Virus record (IMG/VR): IMGVR_UViG_3300044950_000471
Location: 1 to 20,299 of that record
DNA: 20,299 bases
Strand: one strand, 5' to 3'
Source: a virus
Below are positions 2,838-19,100 of this stretch, piece by piece. The stretch's first letter is position 1; each line of letters begins with the position of its first letter. The notes beneath the pieces are model-generated. The model did no database searches. It was not told where the DNA came from and saw only the letters and a program-made list of their open reading frames with translations. Both the position numbers and the translations under genes were made by a program.

Positions 2838-5056
2838 TATTTAACCCCTATAATTTTGCCGTTAGCGTCCCGAACAACTTGTTTTGGACGAGTTACTTGG
2901 TTGTGCATTTCAGACATTCTGTCGAGCAATGCTTGGTTTTGTTGATTTGCCATTGTCATCATTTGTGTCATGTTCATATTAACACTATCGATAACATTGC
3001 CCAGTGAGCTTGATAATAATTGACTAACTTGCGGTGTTCCTGTTTCATCAAGTTCTGTCATTGCATCCGCGTCTTTTCCTGCGTTAAGCGTTAAGACGTG
3101 TTGTTTCATGCTATTTTGAGCTTGAATCTGTGCAATAGCAATTCTAGTGTCGTTATCAAGCTGTGTTTTCCATCTATCAAACTCGAGTTTAGCTTGTTCA
3201 AGCTGATTGCTTGCTTGAAGTTTCACTTGTTCAAGCTGCATTGTCGCCTGCTCTGACTGTTGTTGTGCTTGCATCTTCATTTGGGCAATTTGCGCCTCTG
3301 CTTGGGTGCGTTGCTCGTCTTTAGTTGGGCCTTGAGGCTCTTGTGCTTTCTTAGCCGCTTGGTCAACAAACTGTTCAAGGACGCCTTCAAGCTCACGCCC
3401 TGCCTTAAATCCTCGAACACCATAAAGCAATAGCTCTCCAACTAACGGCGCTATGGCAGGGTCTTCTTTAACCGCGCCAATACCGTCTTTAATAAAGCTA
3501 CTCACCGCTTGCAAAAACTCCATGCGGTTTGCTTTTTCAGTCTGTTTATCAAGCTCAACTAACGTGTCTGTCTGTATGTCAACGTTAAAGACTCTAGCAG
3601 GCTCATTTTTAAGTAACTCAATTGCCTGCTGCGCAAATTGAGCGTCAGGCGTGTTCATAATACCTGACACTTCAATTAATGTCTGTGGTTGGTATTTTGA
3701 GCAGATAATCTCCGACTTCATGCGTAGAATTTCACGCGCAAAACGGTAAAGCCCATCTTTCATGTTGCCAAGTCGCAACGACGCGTATTGGCTCTTAATC
3801 TGCTGCGCTGTCGCTGTTTCACTCGCTACCGACGCGCCACGCATGATGTCGGAAAGCCCTGTTGTTTCGTAAATAATTTGTTTACATGCTTCACGCGCTT
3901 GATATAGCTGTTGCAGTGCTGACGCAACGTCGCCAAGTGGCATAAATTGCACAGCGCCTTGCAATCCGCCTTTTTCAACAAACGCCGCCCAGTTTTTGAC
4001 AGGAACAAGCACCCCATCATTACCTTCTTTCATCAAGCGTTCAATCGCAGGCTCGTCCGCCGCGTAAATACCCATCACTTTGAGCGCTTTGGTCAAATGC
4101 TTGATTCGACCTGTTAACTCGTCAATTTCGTCTGCTTGGTCTTGATAAAGTAAGAAATCAGCTACAGGAATCAGCGTCCCTGTTGATGTAGTTGCAAAGT
4201 AAGGCTTAGGGCAGGGGTAAAAGCTAGTCAAGCCTAGAGGGTCATCTCTGTGGTCTAGGATGACATCGTAATTATCCGCAATCCAATAGACGCATTTTTC
4301 AGCTTTGCTCCAAATTTCCCAAATTTCCGCTTTTTTATCGGCTTTAGTGGTTTCTTTGTCGCCGTCTTTACGATTTGACGTGTTAGTTAACGGGACTTTC
4401 TCAAAAATGTCGCCAAAGCGCTCAATCCCTTCATCTAACGTCATATAGACGCGACGCGCTACCCATGTCACCTCGTCCCATGTTCGAGCAGGTAGATGTG
4501 CAAAGTCCTGCCAGTAGACATAATCCACCGGTGTTGTTTCCGACACGACACGTTCATAGACTTCAGTCTGTGCTAACCCGTTTTCTTCATCCGGTGTGCG
4601 CTCTGCGGTATATTCACTATCGCCCACTTCCGTATAGTTGGTAATTTGAGGCTCAAATTCTTCAATCTTAGGTTCGTAGCGTAGCCATGCCACGCCTCTG
4701 CCCGGAAGCAGTCTGTCGTCCACCACGCAAGACAGCGTGTCGTGAAAATCAGGGTATTCCTTAATTTCAAAATCAAGAACGCGCTCTAAAATTATGCTCG
4801 CTACTCTGCCGGCGTCATTTCTATCGTCAAAGCGTCTTGAAATCTCAGGGTTGGGCGGTTTTGCGTAAATGGCAGGCTTTAGTGTCTGTACGTTAGACCA
4901 AAGAATATTAAATCGTGCGTCTGCTTGCTCTGCGTCTTTGCGCTCGTCACGGTAGCGCTTGACAATCTTTTCGCCACGCTCCGTCCATTTCTTATATTCT
5001 TCTTGGTAGCGCGATATTTCGTCGTGCCAAGGCTGTGCTGATAGTTTGTCACTCAT
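2837..5056 (-). CDS. portal protein, P22 family
   Basis: A 739-residue protein matching the P22-type portal family in length and features. It has an N-terminal helical segment with WHDEISRYQEEYKKW, a conserved FNILWSNVQTLKPAIYAKPPNPEI region (about 50-72), RLLPGRGVAWLRYEP near 120, YVYWQDFAHLPARTWDEVTW near 180, and a central stem/wing region with TGLSDIMRGA. The C-terminal part (about 565-650) is a long Gln/Lys/Ala-rich coiled coil, fitting a barrel-like extension. The portal is the dodecameric ring at one capsid vertex through which terminase pumps DNA and to which the tail attaches. It directly follows the large terminase (TAATG overlap). A fibre gene immediately after the portal, with no scaffold or capsid gene in between, means the head genes lie outside the window. 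Confidence 0.93.
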   Translation of the reverse strand: MSDKLSAQPWHDEISRYQEEYKKWTERGEKIVKRYRDERKDAEQADARFNILWSNVQTLKPAIYAKPPNPEISRRFDDRNDAGRVASIILERVLDFEIKEYPDFHDTLSCVVDDRLLPGRGVAWLRYEPKIEEFEPQITNYTEVGDSEYTAERTPDEENGLAQTEVYERVVSETTPVDYVYWQDFAHLPARTWDEVTWVARRVYMTLDEGIERFGDIFEKVPLTNTSNRKDGDKETTKADKKAEIWEIWSKAEKCVYWIADNYDVILDHRDDPLGLTSFYPCPKPYFATTSTGTLIPVADFLLYQDQADEIDELTGRIKHLTKALKVMGIYAADEPAIERLMKEGNDGVLVPVKNWAAFVEKGGLQGAVQFMPLGDVASALQQLYQAREACKQIIYETTGLSDIMRGASVASETATAQQIKSQYASLRLGNMKDGLYRFAREILRMKSEIICSKYQPQTLIEVSGIMNTPDAQFAQQAIELLKNEPARVFNVDIQTDTLVELDKQTEKANRMEFLQAVSSFIKDGIGAVKEDPAIAPLVGELLLYGVRGFKAGRELEGVLEQFVDQAAKKAQEPQGPTKDEQRTQAEAQIAQMKMQAQQQSEQATMQLEQVKLQASNQLEQAKLEFDRWKTQLDNDTRIAIAQIQAQNSMKQHVLTLNAGKDADAMTELDETGTPQVSQLLSSSLGNVIDSVNMNMTQMMTMANQQNQALLDRMSEMHNQVTRPKQVVRDANGKIIGVK

Positions 5057-12213: not shown

Positions 12214-14126
12214 TTTCCATATCTCTCTAATGTTGATACACCAACCGCTAAGGGTAATCCTTCTGCCCACGCAGGGGCGCTACACATCACGGTTTCCAAG
12301 TCTTGCGCGGCTGTCGCCGCGTCTTCTTTTTTCACTTCTAGCACGATTTCATCGTGAACATGAAGCACGACATTATGCTCGATTCGACGCAAAGCGTCAC
12401 GAAGTAAATCATTTGCAATCGCCTGTGTAATATTCTCGCAAGCGAGTCCAGCCCATAGCCTAGCTCGCGGCCATTCGACTGCATCAGCAGCGGGTTTCCA
12501 CGCCGCCTTAGCGTAAGATACCGACCCATCTTCAATATATGCCGACGGATAACACAGCACCCGACCAGACGGCAAGGCGTACCACAAATTCACACCGTCA
12601 AACAGATACGTCACGCGACCAGCGGTAAACTCACGCCCCTTATGGCGCATGGCGCACATATATGCTCGCTCAAGCTCACCCCAATACTGCACCGCCCAAG
12701 TGTTACTGCGACGCCACGCGTCAACGGTACGTTTAGCCTCAGCTTCAGGCAGTGAGATGCCGTAGGCTTTACCCATAGCGCCAAACGCCCCAGCGCCACC
12801 CATATAGCCGCACGACAGAATAGCCACCTTACCAATCTGACGTTGGTCAGGCGTTATCATATCCATTGGACGATTAAAGATACCTGCGGCGGCGCGAACG
12901 TAAATGTCCTCACCACTGCGAAACACATTAAGCACATCCTCACTGCCATGCTGCAAACTCGCCCACGGCGTGACACGCGCTTCAATACCTGCCCAATCTG
13001 CTACCACGAACACGTTTCCAATAGCAGGCATCAGCGCAGGGCGAAGCATACCCTTTAAAACGTCAGTGACACGCTTACCATGCGCCGGAACAATATCACG
13101 CCCTATGACCATATCATCACGCACCCGCTGTGGCTCTTTAGCGCATTTACGCGTAAAGTTATGCACCTGCGCACCATAGGACGACGCTCGACCAGTTGCC
13201 GACCCGCCGTTGAAAACAAACGCACCACGCACACGATGATCTTCAAAATCTGCAAGAGCAAGCAGACGGCTAAACTTCGCCACAGACGACGCCCACAAGT
13301 CATCAGCGCATTGAATAACCTCCGCAACGTGCGGTGGAATTTCCTCAGGGTTGTCCATCAATAGCAAATTAGCGCGAACGCTTTTGTCGATAGAATACTT
13401 CTCACCATTCCACATTAGCTCTTTAGCCGCAGAACCAACGCGCTCAAGCACCCACTCACGCATCTTCGGTGAACGAACAGACTTAATTGCACCGTCAGTA
13501 AGCTCCACGACGCGAGATTGGATTTCCTCAAGCTCAACACTGGCGTAACGCATAGCGGCGCGACACAAGTCAACGTCCACGAGAACACCTGCGTCGTTAA
13601 TGCGCTCGTTGACGTGATAGTCTGCAAGCTCGTCATTTGTCAACTGACGTAGCGACTGCGACACTGCTCGCATGGTTCTCACGTCTTGACGGCAATACTC
13701 AATAAGCTCAGGTAGCAATTTGGTGTTAAAAGGAGGAGTACAGCACTGCTTAACTAACATCTTGCCACGGTGGTCTTTGCGCATCTCGCTAGAGATAGCG
13801 CGACCAACATCCTCAAGACTGCCCGGAAGGCAATTTGCCCGTGCTTGCACAGCGGTGCAGTAAAACTGCTCAAGTTTAAAGTCTATTTGTAGAACGTACC
13901 AGAATATCAAACGCTCAAACGCGGCGTTATGCGCCCGTATCTGTCCCGTGAAGTTGCGAACGTTGTCAGGAAACGGCATATCAGGCGTCCATGTTTGCAC
14001 GTCCTCATCATCGAAGGCGTAGCACATACACAGCACGTCAGTGGTCAAATCTTGCGCGTAATTGTAAACGCCGTGCTTAGGTAAATCACATTCGCTCTTT
14101 GTTTCGAAATCGATATAAAGAATCAT
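12210..14126 (-). CDS. DNA polymerase, family A, with 3'-5' exonuclease
   Basis: A 638-residue replicative polymerase of the phage family A type. The exonuclease has YIDFETKS (D6, E8), AHNAAFE (65-71) and YCRQDV (D148). The polymerase domain has motif A VVADWAGIEAR (D377), motif B with R429, K433 and Y441 in RQIGKVAILSCGYMGG, and motif C HDE (591-593). All catalytic residues are present. The residue matching E. coli Phe762 is Leu437, a variant reported to be associated with slower, more accurate polymerases and temperate phages. I chose the ATG at 14126 because it overlaps the stop of the PP-loop gene (ATGA). An in-frame ATG five codons earlier (14141) is possible. Together with the primase-helicase and clamp it forms the phage replisome. 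Confidence 0.94.
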   Translation of the reverse strand: MILYIDFETKSECDLPKHGVYNYAQDLTTDVLCMCYAFDDEDVQTWTPDMPFPDNVRNFTGQIRAHNAAFERLIFWYVLQIDFKLEQFYCTAVQARANCLPGSLEDVGRAISSEMRKDHRGKMLVKQCCTPPFNTKLLPELIEYCRQDVRTMRAVSQSLRQLTNDELADYHVNERINDAGVLVDVDLCRAAMRYASVELEEIQSRVVELTDGAIKSVRSPKMREWVLERVGSAAKELMWNGEKYSIDKSVRANLLLMDNPEEIPPHVAEVIQCADDLWASSVAKFSRLLALADFEDHRVRGAFVFNGGSATGRASSYGAQVHNFTRKCAKEPQRVRDDMVIGRDIVPAHGKRVTDVLKGMLRPALMPAIGNVFVVADWAGIEARVTPWASLQHGSEDVLNVFRSGEDIYVRAAAGIFNRPMDMITPDQRQIGKVAILSCGYMGGAGAFGAMGKAYGISLPEAEAKRTVDAWRRSNTWAVQYWGELERAYMCAMRHKGREFTAGRVTYLFDGVNLWYALPSGRVLCYPSAYIEDGSVSYAKAAWKPAADAVEWPRARLWAGLACENITQAIANDLLRDALRRIEHNVVLHVHDEIVLEVKKEDAATAAQDLETVMCSAPAWAEGLPLAVGVSTLERYGK

Positions 14127-14887
14127 ATTGCACAACCGCATCCGCCGTATTCTTGACTTTCTAATGCTGTCACTTTACCTTGCGTTAAAAATTCTTCTCT
14201 GTATTGTTTAAGCGTTAGTCTGCGTAAAACTTTATTTTCCGTCTTTTTTAAAAACGGATATGTTGCACCTATTACGTCGTAGACTTCTTGTTCTTTACTT
14301 TCAAACTCTCTATATCTTTCAGGATTAGCTTCATAAAGCGCTTTGTAATGCCCAAGCCCTGCTTTAATGCAAAAACCACCACAGTTATTATGACCTAACT
14401 TCCAGTCATAAAGTCTTGGACGTTTAATGCCAAATTGTTCGCTGTAGTCTTTGTTGATAATTTTCCCTTCTTCAACTAATGTTGAGCGATATATGTAAGG
14501 TGACATTCGTTTTTGAACGCCATCAAGACGATGACTTTCTGAGTAATCAATACCTAAGTGCATCTGCGCGTCATCAACAGCGTAAGTAGACGTAAACCAT
14601 TTATTAAGAGGTTCACGTTTTAATATTTTAGAGCATGGGTCAACCATACTGTTACCCATAAACTTTTCTCGCTTAAAGATTTCAAATGGCGTTTTACCGT
14701 TTGTAAGCGTCACTAACTCGCAACCAAGAAAAGCTACACACTCATCTTTAAACCTGTAAAGGTCTTCATCTTCCATCAACGTGTCAGCAAACAACAAAGT
14801 GACATTTTCTTTGCCGTACTTATCAACGCACGATTTAGCTTCTGCAAAGCTACCCATACCACCTGAAAAACTAACTATATGTTTCAT
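14123..14887 (-). CDS. PP-loop protein, PAPS-reductase-like
   Basis: A 254-residue member of the PAPS reductase/N-type ATP pyrophosphatase superfamily. It has the PP-loop SFSGGMGS (6-13), LLFADTLMEDEDLYRF (31-46) and DPCSKILKREPLNKWF (83-98), which matches the family's second conserved motif. Five notable cysteines could hold a metal or Fe-S cluster: C85, C169 and C173 in NNCGGFC, and C250 and C252 in the GGCGCAI tail. The superfamily activates substrates by adenylation and includes sulfate reduction, tRNA thiolation, 7-deazaguanine synthesis and DndC DNA sulfur modification. It does not look like QueC. A GGAG binding site supports the start, and it is coupled to DNA polymerase by ATGA. A nucleic-acid-related role is inferred from context; the substrate is unknown. 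Confidence 0.85.
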   Translation of the reverse strand: MKHIVSFSGGMGSFAEAKSCVDKYGKENVTLLFADTLMEDEDLYRFKDECVAFLGCELVTLTNGKTPFEIFKREKFMGNSMVDPCSKILKREPLNKWFTSTYAVDDAQMHLGIDYSESHRLDGVQKRMSPYIYRSTLVEEGKIINKDYSEQFGIKRPRLYDWKLGHNNCGGFCIKAGLGHYKALYEANPERYREFESKEQEVYDVIGATYPFLKKTENKVLRRLTLKQYREEFLTQGKVTALESQEYGGCGCAI

Positions 14888-17853: not shown

Positions 17854-18044
17854 CTGAAACAACAATAAAAAAATACTGTGAGCAGAATAGAATTAGCCGC
17901 AGCGGCATGGATTACCATATCCGCCGGTCAGGCGTGTTCCCAATCGGCAGTAAACGATTCTCCGAAGCAGGCGCACCCTCATTCTTGTGGCGCGTTACCG
18001 ATTTAGACGAAATCAAAGCGCTAATCAAAGGAAAGAAAAAATGA
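17850..18044 (+). CDS. small helix-turn-helix-like DNA-binding protein
   Basis: A 64-residue, very basic protein. The first part (TIKKYCEQNRISRSGMDYHI) fits a helix-turn-helix of the kind seen in small excisionase or MerR-like phage regulators, followed by a wing-like RRSGVFPIGSKRF and a final helix (DLDEIKALIKGKKK). It starts by ATGA overlap. It may regulate a phage promoter, for example at 17112-17193 or 6846-7063, but this is a guess. An accessory DNA-binding role is equally possible. Confidence 0.65.
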   Translation: MTETTIKKYCEQNRISRSGMDYHIRRSGVFPIGSKRFSEAGAPSFLWRVTDLDEIKALIKGKKK

Positions 18045-18241
18045 AAGATGAACTTTTATACATAGCCATTGGCGCGTTTCTAATCGGCGCTGTTGCGTCA
18101 ACGTTAACAATTTACGCAACACACAGACACTACCATGAAATCATTAAAACTAACATTGGCGAATTTATGCTTCGTGACGGTAAAGTGTATGGTGTTTATG
18201 AAATGACGCGCGATGTGCAAGGCAACATGGTGTCAAAATGA
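18041..18241 (+). CDS. 66-residue N-terminally anchored membrane protein
   Basis: ATGA overlap with the upstream gene sets the start at 18041; a longer in-frame reading from 17987 lies inside that gene. Residues 5-26 (LLYIAIGAFLIGAVASTLTIYA) form a membrane anchor. The remaining 40 residues (THRHYHEIIKTN... VYGVYEMTRDV) form a small soluble part, side uncertain. No family is recognised. It is coupled by ATGA to the DpdA-like gene. Confidence 0.72.
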   Translation: MKDELLYIAIGAFLIGAVASTLTIYATHRHYHEIIKTNIGEFMLRDGKVYGVYEMTRDVQGNMVSK

Positions 18242-18969
18242 TTCACTATCACGGCACACCGATTGGCGGAACACGTCAAGACGTAGCACGATTTCTTGTT
18301 GGCCGCCACGCTTTAATCCCATTTGGAAGACAAGATGACACTGGCGCGGTGCTAGAGTTTTGCCAATCTTTTGTGCTAGATAATGGCGCGTTTAGCCATT
18401 GGAAAAAAGGTCACGGCGCAATTGACTTTGATGCTTATTTAGCATGGGCGCAATCGCTATGCCGCCACCCATCTTTTGACTGGGCATTAATCCCCGATAT
18501 TATTGATGGCACAGAAGAAGATAACAAAAACTGGGTGCTAAAATGGACTAGAACAGGAACAAAAGCAAAAGGTGTTCCTGTGTGGCATTTGCATGAGTCT
18601 TTTGAATATCTTGAATGGCTTATTGATTCTTTTGAAATTGTGGCGTTAGGTAGCAGTGGAGATTATGCAACACCGAATACTAAAAAATGGTGGGGTAGAA
18701 TGTCAGACGTAATGAATGTTGTTACTGATGATAAGGGAATGCCTAAATGTAAATTACACGGTTTGCGTATGCTTAACCCTAAAGTGTTTACTAAACTGCC
18801 ATTGTCATCAGCAGATTCAACTAACGCCGCAGTAAATTGTGGGTCACTTGATAGATTTGGAATTTATAAACCCGCTACAGCAGCTCAGAGAGCAGCGGTA
18901 ATTGCAGACAGAATTGAGCAACATAATTCCGCGCCATTTTGGGTAGAAAATTTAGAGGGTACAGAATGA
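18238..18969 (+). CDS. DpdA / tRNA-guanine transglycosylase-like enzyme
   Basis: A 243-residue protein with features of the TGT-like TIM-barrel family that includes phage DpdA, which exchanges guanine for 7-deazaguanine bases in DNA. FVLDNGAFSHW (45-55) matches the DSGAF motif with acid D48. ALIPDIIDG (83-91), GVPVWHLHES (112-121) and VALGSSGDY (135-143) fit successive barrel strands. KLHGLRML (172-179) followed by PLSSADST (188-195) gives the expected nucleophile, D193. At 243 residues it is shorter than bacterial TGT and lacks its zinc site, as in short phage versions. No folE, queD, queE or queC lies in the window, so the base would have to come from the host or other phage genes. Whether the target is DNA or tRNA is unknown. 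Starts by ATGA overlap. Confidence 0.75.
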   Translation: MIHYHGTPIGGTRQDVARFLVGRHALIPFGRQDDTGAVLEFCQSFVLDNGAFSHWKKGHGAIDFDAYLAWAQSLCRHPSFDWALIPDIIDGTEEDNKNWVLKWTRTGTKAKGVPVWHLHESFEYLEWLIDSFEIVALGSSGDYATPNTKKWWGRMSDVMNVVTDDKGMPKCKLHGLRMLNPKVFTKLPLSSADSTNAAVNCGSLDRFGIYKPATAAQRAAVIADRIEQHNSAPFWVENLEGTE

Positions 18970-19100
18970 CAAAAGACGAATGCTTTAAAAGATTAGAAAT
19001 GGCGCAGAAAAACAAAAAAGAATTGAAGAAAATTAAACTTCAACTCCTTAAAGAAATCGAGCAATTAAAGTTAATGCTTCGCGCACTGGAGGAAGGGTAA
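18966..19100 (+). CDS. 44-residue coiled-coil peptide
   Basis: Starts in an ATGA overlap with the DpdA-like gene. Almost the entire product is a Lys/Glu/Leu-rich helix (KNKKELKKIKLQLLKEIEQL) with heptad leucines, so it is likely to form a coiled coil. Partner and function are unknown; it could regulate or multimerise with a neighbour. Too small for routine gene finders, but the coupling and composition support translation. Confidence 0.6.
   Translation: MTKDECFKRLEMAQKNKKELKKIKLQLLKEIEQLKLMLRALEEG

Follow-up and report, generated by a model that had tools for sequence, protein, structure and literature searches.

A compact singleton DpdA-family protein in a freshwater tailed phage and the pairing of dpdA with YhhQ/VUT-type genes among its relatives

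We analyzed a 20.3-kb fragment of a tailed phage of freshwater origin, taken from a virus record and called the window below in its full length of 20,299 nucleotides. One of its genes encodes a protein whose assignment to the DpdA family is well supported by sequence comparison; it is a further member of an already known DpdA group. In the explanation that we consider probable, this compact singleton DpdA would exchange a base in the phage's own DNA, be fed with host-made 7-deazaguanine, and leave a low level of dADG.

The portal, terminase, primase, polymerase, and exonuclease genes are located on the minus strand of the window, and the plus strand carries a chain of short genes from 17194 to the window end, with the dpdA-like gene inside it (Table 1). 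The terminase is nearest to those of Rhodoferax phage P26218 and Pelagibacter phages, at about 41–43% identity. The open reading frame of 243 residues that the preliminary description placed at 18238–18969 is present exactly so and is a real, conserved gene, and the ATGA overlap reported there with the preceding gene was confirmed (ATG at 18041, stop at 18241). A second ATGA overlap is formed with the downstream ATG at 18966, which opens a 44-residue frame conserved in about 15 close relatives. At the other end of the window, at 1087–1761 on the minus strand, lies a gene for a phrog_4245 protein with a C-terminus that by eye resembles a lectin-like variable protein; we noticed no gene for a reverse transcriptase in the window.

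Table 1. Positions of the dpdA-like gene, its motifs, and its two overlapping neighbors in the window.
Feature	Position	Strand	Remarks
Small gene for a 66-aa protein with one hydrophobic stretch	18041..18241	+	Overlaps dpdA by ATGA; matches no transporter
dpdA-like gene for a compact singleton DpdA of 243 aa	18238..18969	+	ATG start; supported by phrog_887, BLASTP, and the AlphaFold barrel
LDNGAFS, D48	18376..18396	+	Aligned with D72 (FLDSGAFS) in 9g DpdA; at the strand 3 end
IPDII, P86-D87	18490..18504	+	Invariant in the singleton group; directly after strand 4
VWHLHE, H117	18580..18597	+	H117 invariant; end of strand 5
HGLRML, H174	18757..18774	+	Aligned with H196 in 9g, which is specific to DpdA; at the strand 7 end
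SADST, D193, putative nucleophile	18808..18822	+	Aligned with the aspartate of CDSS in 9g and CAjan; at the strand 8 end
44-aa charged ORF	18966..19100	+	Overlaps the dpdA end by ATGA; read from sequence

The dpdA-like gene is under strong purifying selection, with dN/dS values of 0.02–0.13 in the seven measurable relatives, whose proteins are 92–98% identical to it. At least 594 related stretches occur in viral contigs, and a tblastn search with the window protein gave matches in 231 of 50,697 phage records. The protein matches phrog_887 (E 7.6e-63), the family that also contains the DpdA proteins of phages 9g, CAjan, 7-11, and MED16. Homology to experimentally tested phage DpdA is further seen in BLASTP matches to the proteins of 7-11 (E 4e-31) and CAjan (E 2e-16) and in a tblastn match to MED16 DpdA with 33% identity over 95% of the protein.

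An HMM search against DpdA/TGT profiles, proposed earlier as a check, thus succeeded on the DpdA side with phrog_887 but not on the TGT side: no match above cut-off was obtained with the Pfam TGT model (PF01702), and the profile comparison with bacterial TGT was not significant, its local match falling on the D48 motif. Since the tested 9g and CAjan enzymes likewise lack a match to the Pfam TGT model, this absence is no argument against DpdA. NCBIfam and PADLOC gave no match for the window DpdA, and a PDB sequence search found no relative of it.

The two aspartates named in the preliminary description, D48 in LDNGAFS and D193 in the stretch from HGLRML to SADST, are both placed as stated, and both are kept in 63 of 63 homologues that have a residue at the position (64 after dereplication). 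The histidine that is conserved in DpdA and absent in DpdA2, H196 in 9g (PMC6884629), is present in the window protein as H174. As neither 9g nor CAjan has an aspartate in the D87 column, the mapping of D87 onto D156 of TGT was dropped. An AlphaFold model built with 49 homologues (pLDDT 88.8, pTM 0.87) predicts eight strands with helices between them, a (beta/alpha)8 barrel, in which the invariant D48, H117, H174, and D193 are located at the C-terminal strand ends, the site of the active sites of TIM barrels. The original reading of a DpdA with a TGT-like fold is therefore supported by the homology to tested DpdA, by the TIM barrel of the model, and by H174, the histidine specific to DpdA.

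The structural comparison with TGT, also proposed earlier, gave a divided answer. In the BFVD structure search, all named matches with E below 1e-4 were queuine tRNA-ribosyltransferases, whereas the best Foldseek matches in the PDB were generic TIM barrels with a TM score of about 0.55, with no TGT among the top 50. Because these PDB matches are generic, the link to TGT rests on DpdA homology and on the published HHpred result that connects MED16 DpdA with TGT (PMC8306585), not on the fold search.

Could the window enzyme act during infection on host tRNA, as a tRNA-guanine transglycosylase, and not on DNA? It shares with bacterial TGT (PF01702) the barrel fold and the order of two aspartate motifs (TDSGGFQ and DMFDC in TGT), and profile libraries name its family queuine tRNA-ribosyltransferase. 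However, it has no C-terminal zinc/tRNA-binding part as in TGT and has conserved histidines instead, including the DpdA-specific one; DNA is the substrate of its nearest tested relatives, an E. coli tgt mutant was not complemented by 9g dpdA, and no tRNA genes were found in the window. We regard a tRNA target as quite improbable.

The DpdA of Pantoea phage vB_PagS_MED16 (cluster DpdA/TGT_1, PMC8306585) has a similar size (261 aa), the same motifs, and the same invariant aspartate and histidine residues, and its gene is the sole pathway gene, as is probably the case in the window phage; MED16 belongs to a different lineage, and its DNA has been measured to contain 354 dADG per million nucleotides, with no restriction resistance attributable to dADG (PMC8306585). 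The DpdA of Salmonella phage 7-11 is also a singleton, with 31% identity to the window protein and 234 aa as annotated, although its annotated start omits the MIHYHGTP N-terminus; 7-11 DNA contains 50 dADG per million nucleotides. QueC and QueD were searched for in both phages, and neither was found. The small size of the window enzyme, which had been pointed out before, is therefore true but normal for its subgroup and not new. The DpdA proteins of 9g and CAjan belong to the same PHROG and have equivalents of D48, H174, and D193, but they are longer (306–317 aa), do not share D87, and are encoded together with folE/queD/queE/queC in phages with bulk modification. In CAjan, modification requires DpdA.

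Because 7-11 and MED16 combine a dpdA gene, the lack of queC and queD, and measured dADG, the singleton DpdA of the window most likely inserts a host-made 7-deazaguanine; with these two related dpdA-only phages as the precedent, it is plausible by homology that the DNA of the window phage is modified, probably at a low level. D193 would attack the deoxyriboside of chosen guanines, the guanine would leave, and a 7-deazaguanine base would take its place in the phage DNA, with D48 serving as the acid/base and base-holding residue; these putative catalytic roles are drawn from established TGT chemistry. The base would not be made by the phage but would be supplied, as preQ0 or 7-amido-7-deazaguanine, by the queuosine pathway of the host, and the product would most likely be dADG at a small fraction of guanines. 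For the window phage we infer the residue roles, the DNA target, the identity of the base, and the host supply in this way, and the benefit may be restriction evasion or a site-specific mark.

Several observations count against this explanation, namely the generic barrels in the PDB search, the non-significant TGT profile comparison, the trace amounts of dADG in the relatives, and the DNA of Mycobacterium phage Orion, a dpdA-only phage with no DNA modification, whose host lacks the pathway. The very low dADG levels of 7-11 and MED16 would also fit a diverged singleton DpdA with another job, such as base recognition or removal or action on host or competitor DNA, the trace dADG being a by-product. 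Hutinet et al. placed singleton DpdAs in separate network clusters and raised the matter of functional divergence themselves (PMC6884629). Against a diverged function, every candidate catalytic residue is kept, and a transporter family known to carry 7-deazaguanine bases is a recurrent partner of the family (see below), so that we consider it rather unlikely.

The source of the base was examined through QueC and QueD. QueC occurred in none of the 50 related viral contigs and QueD in a single one, where it is cut at the contig end and perhaps belongs to a bacterial flank. Among the 50 are two contigs, of 28.6 kb and 38.9 kb, whose dpdA is identical to that of the window and 98% identical to it, respectively; neither gene was found in these two. 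For queC and queD, the earlier suggestion that preQ0 synthesis genes lie elsewhere in the phage thus received no support from near relatives. That the window is a fragment would leave room for an ordinary full-pathway 7-deazaguanine phage with its own synthesis genes outside, but the QueC and QueD results for these contigs make this very improbable.

Among bacterial genomes carrying a dpdA relative, 17 of 19 have full-length QueC and all 19 have TGT, which is consistent with host supply but not strong evidence, because most bacteria have these genes. The two without full-length QueC are Rhizobium subbaraonis and Devosia ginsengisoli. In Caulobacter phage DMCA, a short gene annotated as 6-carboxytetrahydropterin synthase (QueD) at 3705–4001 ends at the start of a distant dpdA homologue; its Pfam model match is below the cut-off. 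The window itself contains a gene for a PP-loop protein with a PAPS-reductase fold at 14123–14887 on the minus strand (phrog_424; PADLOC SspD match, E 1.3e-13). As a base-making partner it was rejected, since it is present in only one of the 50 dpdA-bearing contigs, the one with the identical dpdA.

The preliminary description had also hinted that the membrane protein encoded upstream of dpdA might take up the base. The ATGA overlap, the retention of the 66-residue gene beside dpdA in about 19 close relatives, and the presence of true uptake-family genes next to dpdA elsewhere speak for such an importer. However, its product has a single N-terminal hydrophobic stretch (read by eye) and no Pfam match, including PF02592/Vut_1, and no match to any other transporter family; there is a weak match to phrog_29148, the function of which is listed as unknown. 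Relatives at a slightly greater distance do not have this gene next to dpdA, and the window's clade has no VUT gene beside dpdA. The 66-residue gene was therefore rejected as a YhhQ/VUT transporter, and we give almost no credence to its importing the base; the idea of an uptake partner holds for other members of the family, where a YhhQ/VUT gene does adjoin dpdA.

Other neighbors of dpdA were also seen. In many Pseudomonas-type prophages, the gene directly upstream of dpdA is a conserved one of about 81 aa (phrog_37496, function listed as unknown) that ends at the dpdA start codon, an arrangement that falls in a cluster comprising 48 loci. At about 15 loci, among them that of Pseudomonas phage Epa33, the gene downstream of dpdA carries the annotation C-5 cytosine-specific DNA methylase.

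Many phages and prophages with a singleton dpdA have a PF02592 (Vut_1) gene, phrog_4899, as its direct neighbor; among about 120 dpdA loci it was seen in 13, on the same strand, before dpdA in some loci and after it in others. In PHROG terms this gene is listed with unknown function, and the pairing with dpdA suggests one for it. We take PF02592 to be the YhhQ transporter family COG1738; the note in the PEAT2 record reads VUT/YhhQ. In E. coli, YhhQ is needed for preQ0 uptake (PMC5372724).

The reverse search with the VUT protein found dpdA adjacent in 24 of 24 viral contigs, which are not independent because they are close relatives of the query, and in 14 of 21 phage records. Nine phage loci were checked directly (AB3P2, ECO111 5-P, PEAT2, Tbat1_6, RCIP0319, Opt-719, Phc, LHE71, and Lg3), and the rest of the 14 were inferred, namely PEAT2 and Tbat1_6 in their second records and three Opt-719-type phages that are nearly identical. 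The other seven records form the mEp021 group with MagusPhagus, represented by two records, MagusPhagus and mEp021, in which no hidden DpdA was found. In both of these, there is an overlap between the VUT gene and one that carries the annotation DNA cytosine methyltransferase, and a DNA adenine methyltransferase gene lies two genes upstream. In bacteria, a VUT gene is located beside dpdA in three loci, a small number: those of Rhizobium subbaraonis, Devosia ginsengisoli, and Ideonella livida, the last of which has QueC. No preQ1 riboswitch was detected near dpdA or VUT at the Rfam gathering threshold in 12 sources.

On a tree built from 64 DpdAs after dereplication, the VUT label requires nine changes, at least four of them forced by well-supported branches; 10 of the 20 VUT-positive rows came from the VUT search and are biased, because they were found through VUT. 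In the window's own clade of 17 rows, no VUT gene lies beside dpdA. The repeated pairing supports base scavenging in a subgroup of these phages, not in the clade of the window. Hutinet et al. found YhhQ uncorrelated with any phage group (PMC6884629), and the literature that we examined, with incomplete coverage, holds no description of the dpdA–VUT pairing.

In the 2019 survey, the most numerous group consisted of phages that have DpdA but lack synthesis genes, and whether and how these modify their DNA was left open there (PMC6884629); the window adds a probable freshwater member to them. We tentatively suggest, as a possibility that we consider somewhat less likely than not, that singleton DpdAs form a scavenger branch, which would take ready-made 7-deazaguanine from the host or surroundings, insert it at a few specific DNA sites, and have recruited a dedicated YhhQ-type importer several times, with the window enzyme as a host-fed, importer-less member. 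The pairing of dpdA with VUT among the relatives is a more useful outcome than the window enzyme itself, as it provides a testable reason to think that such dpdA genes use salvaged bases.
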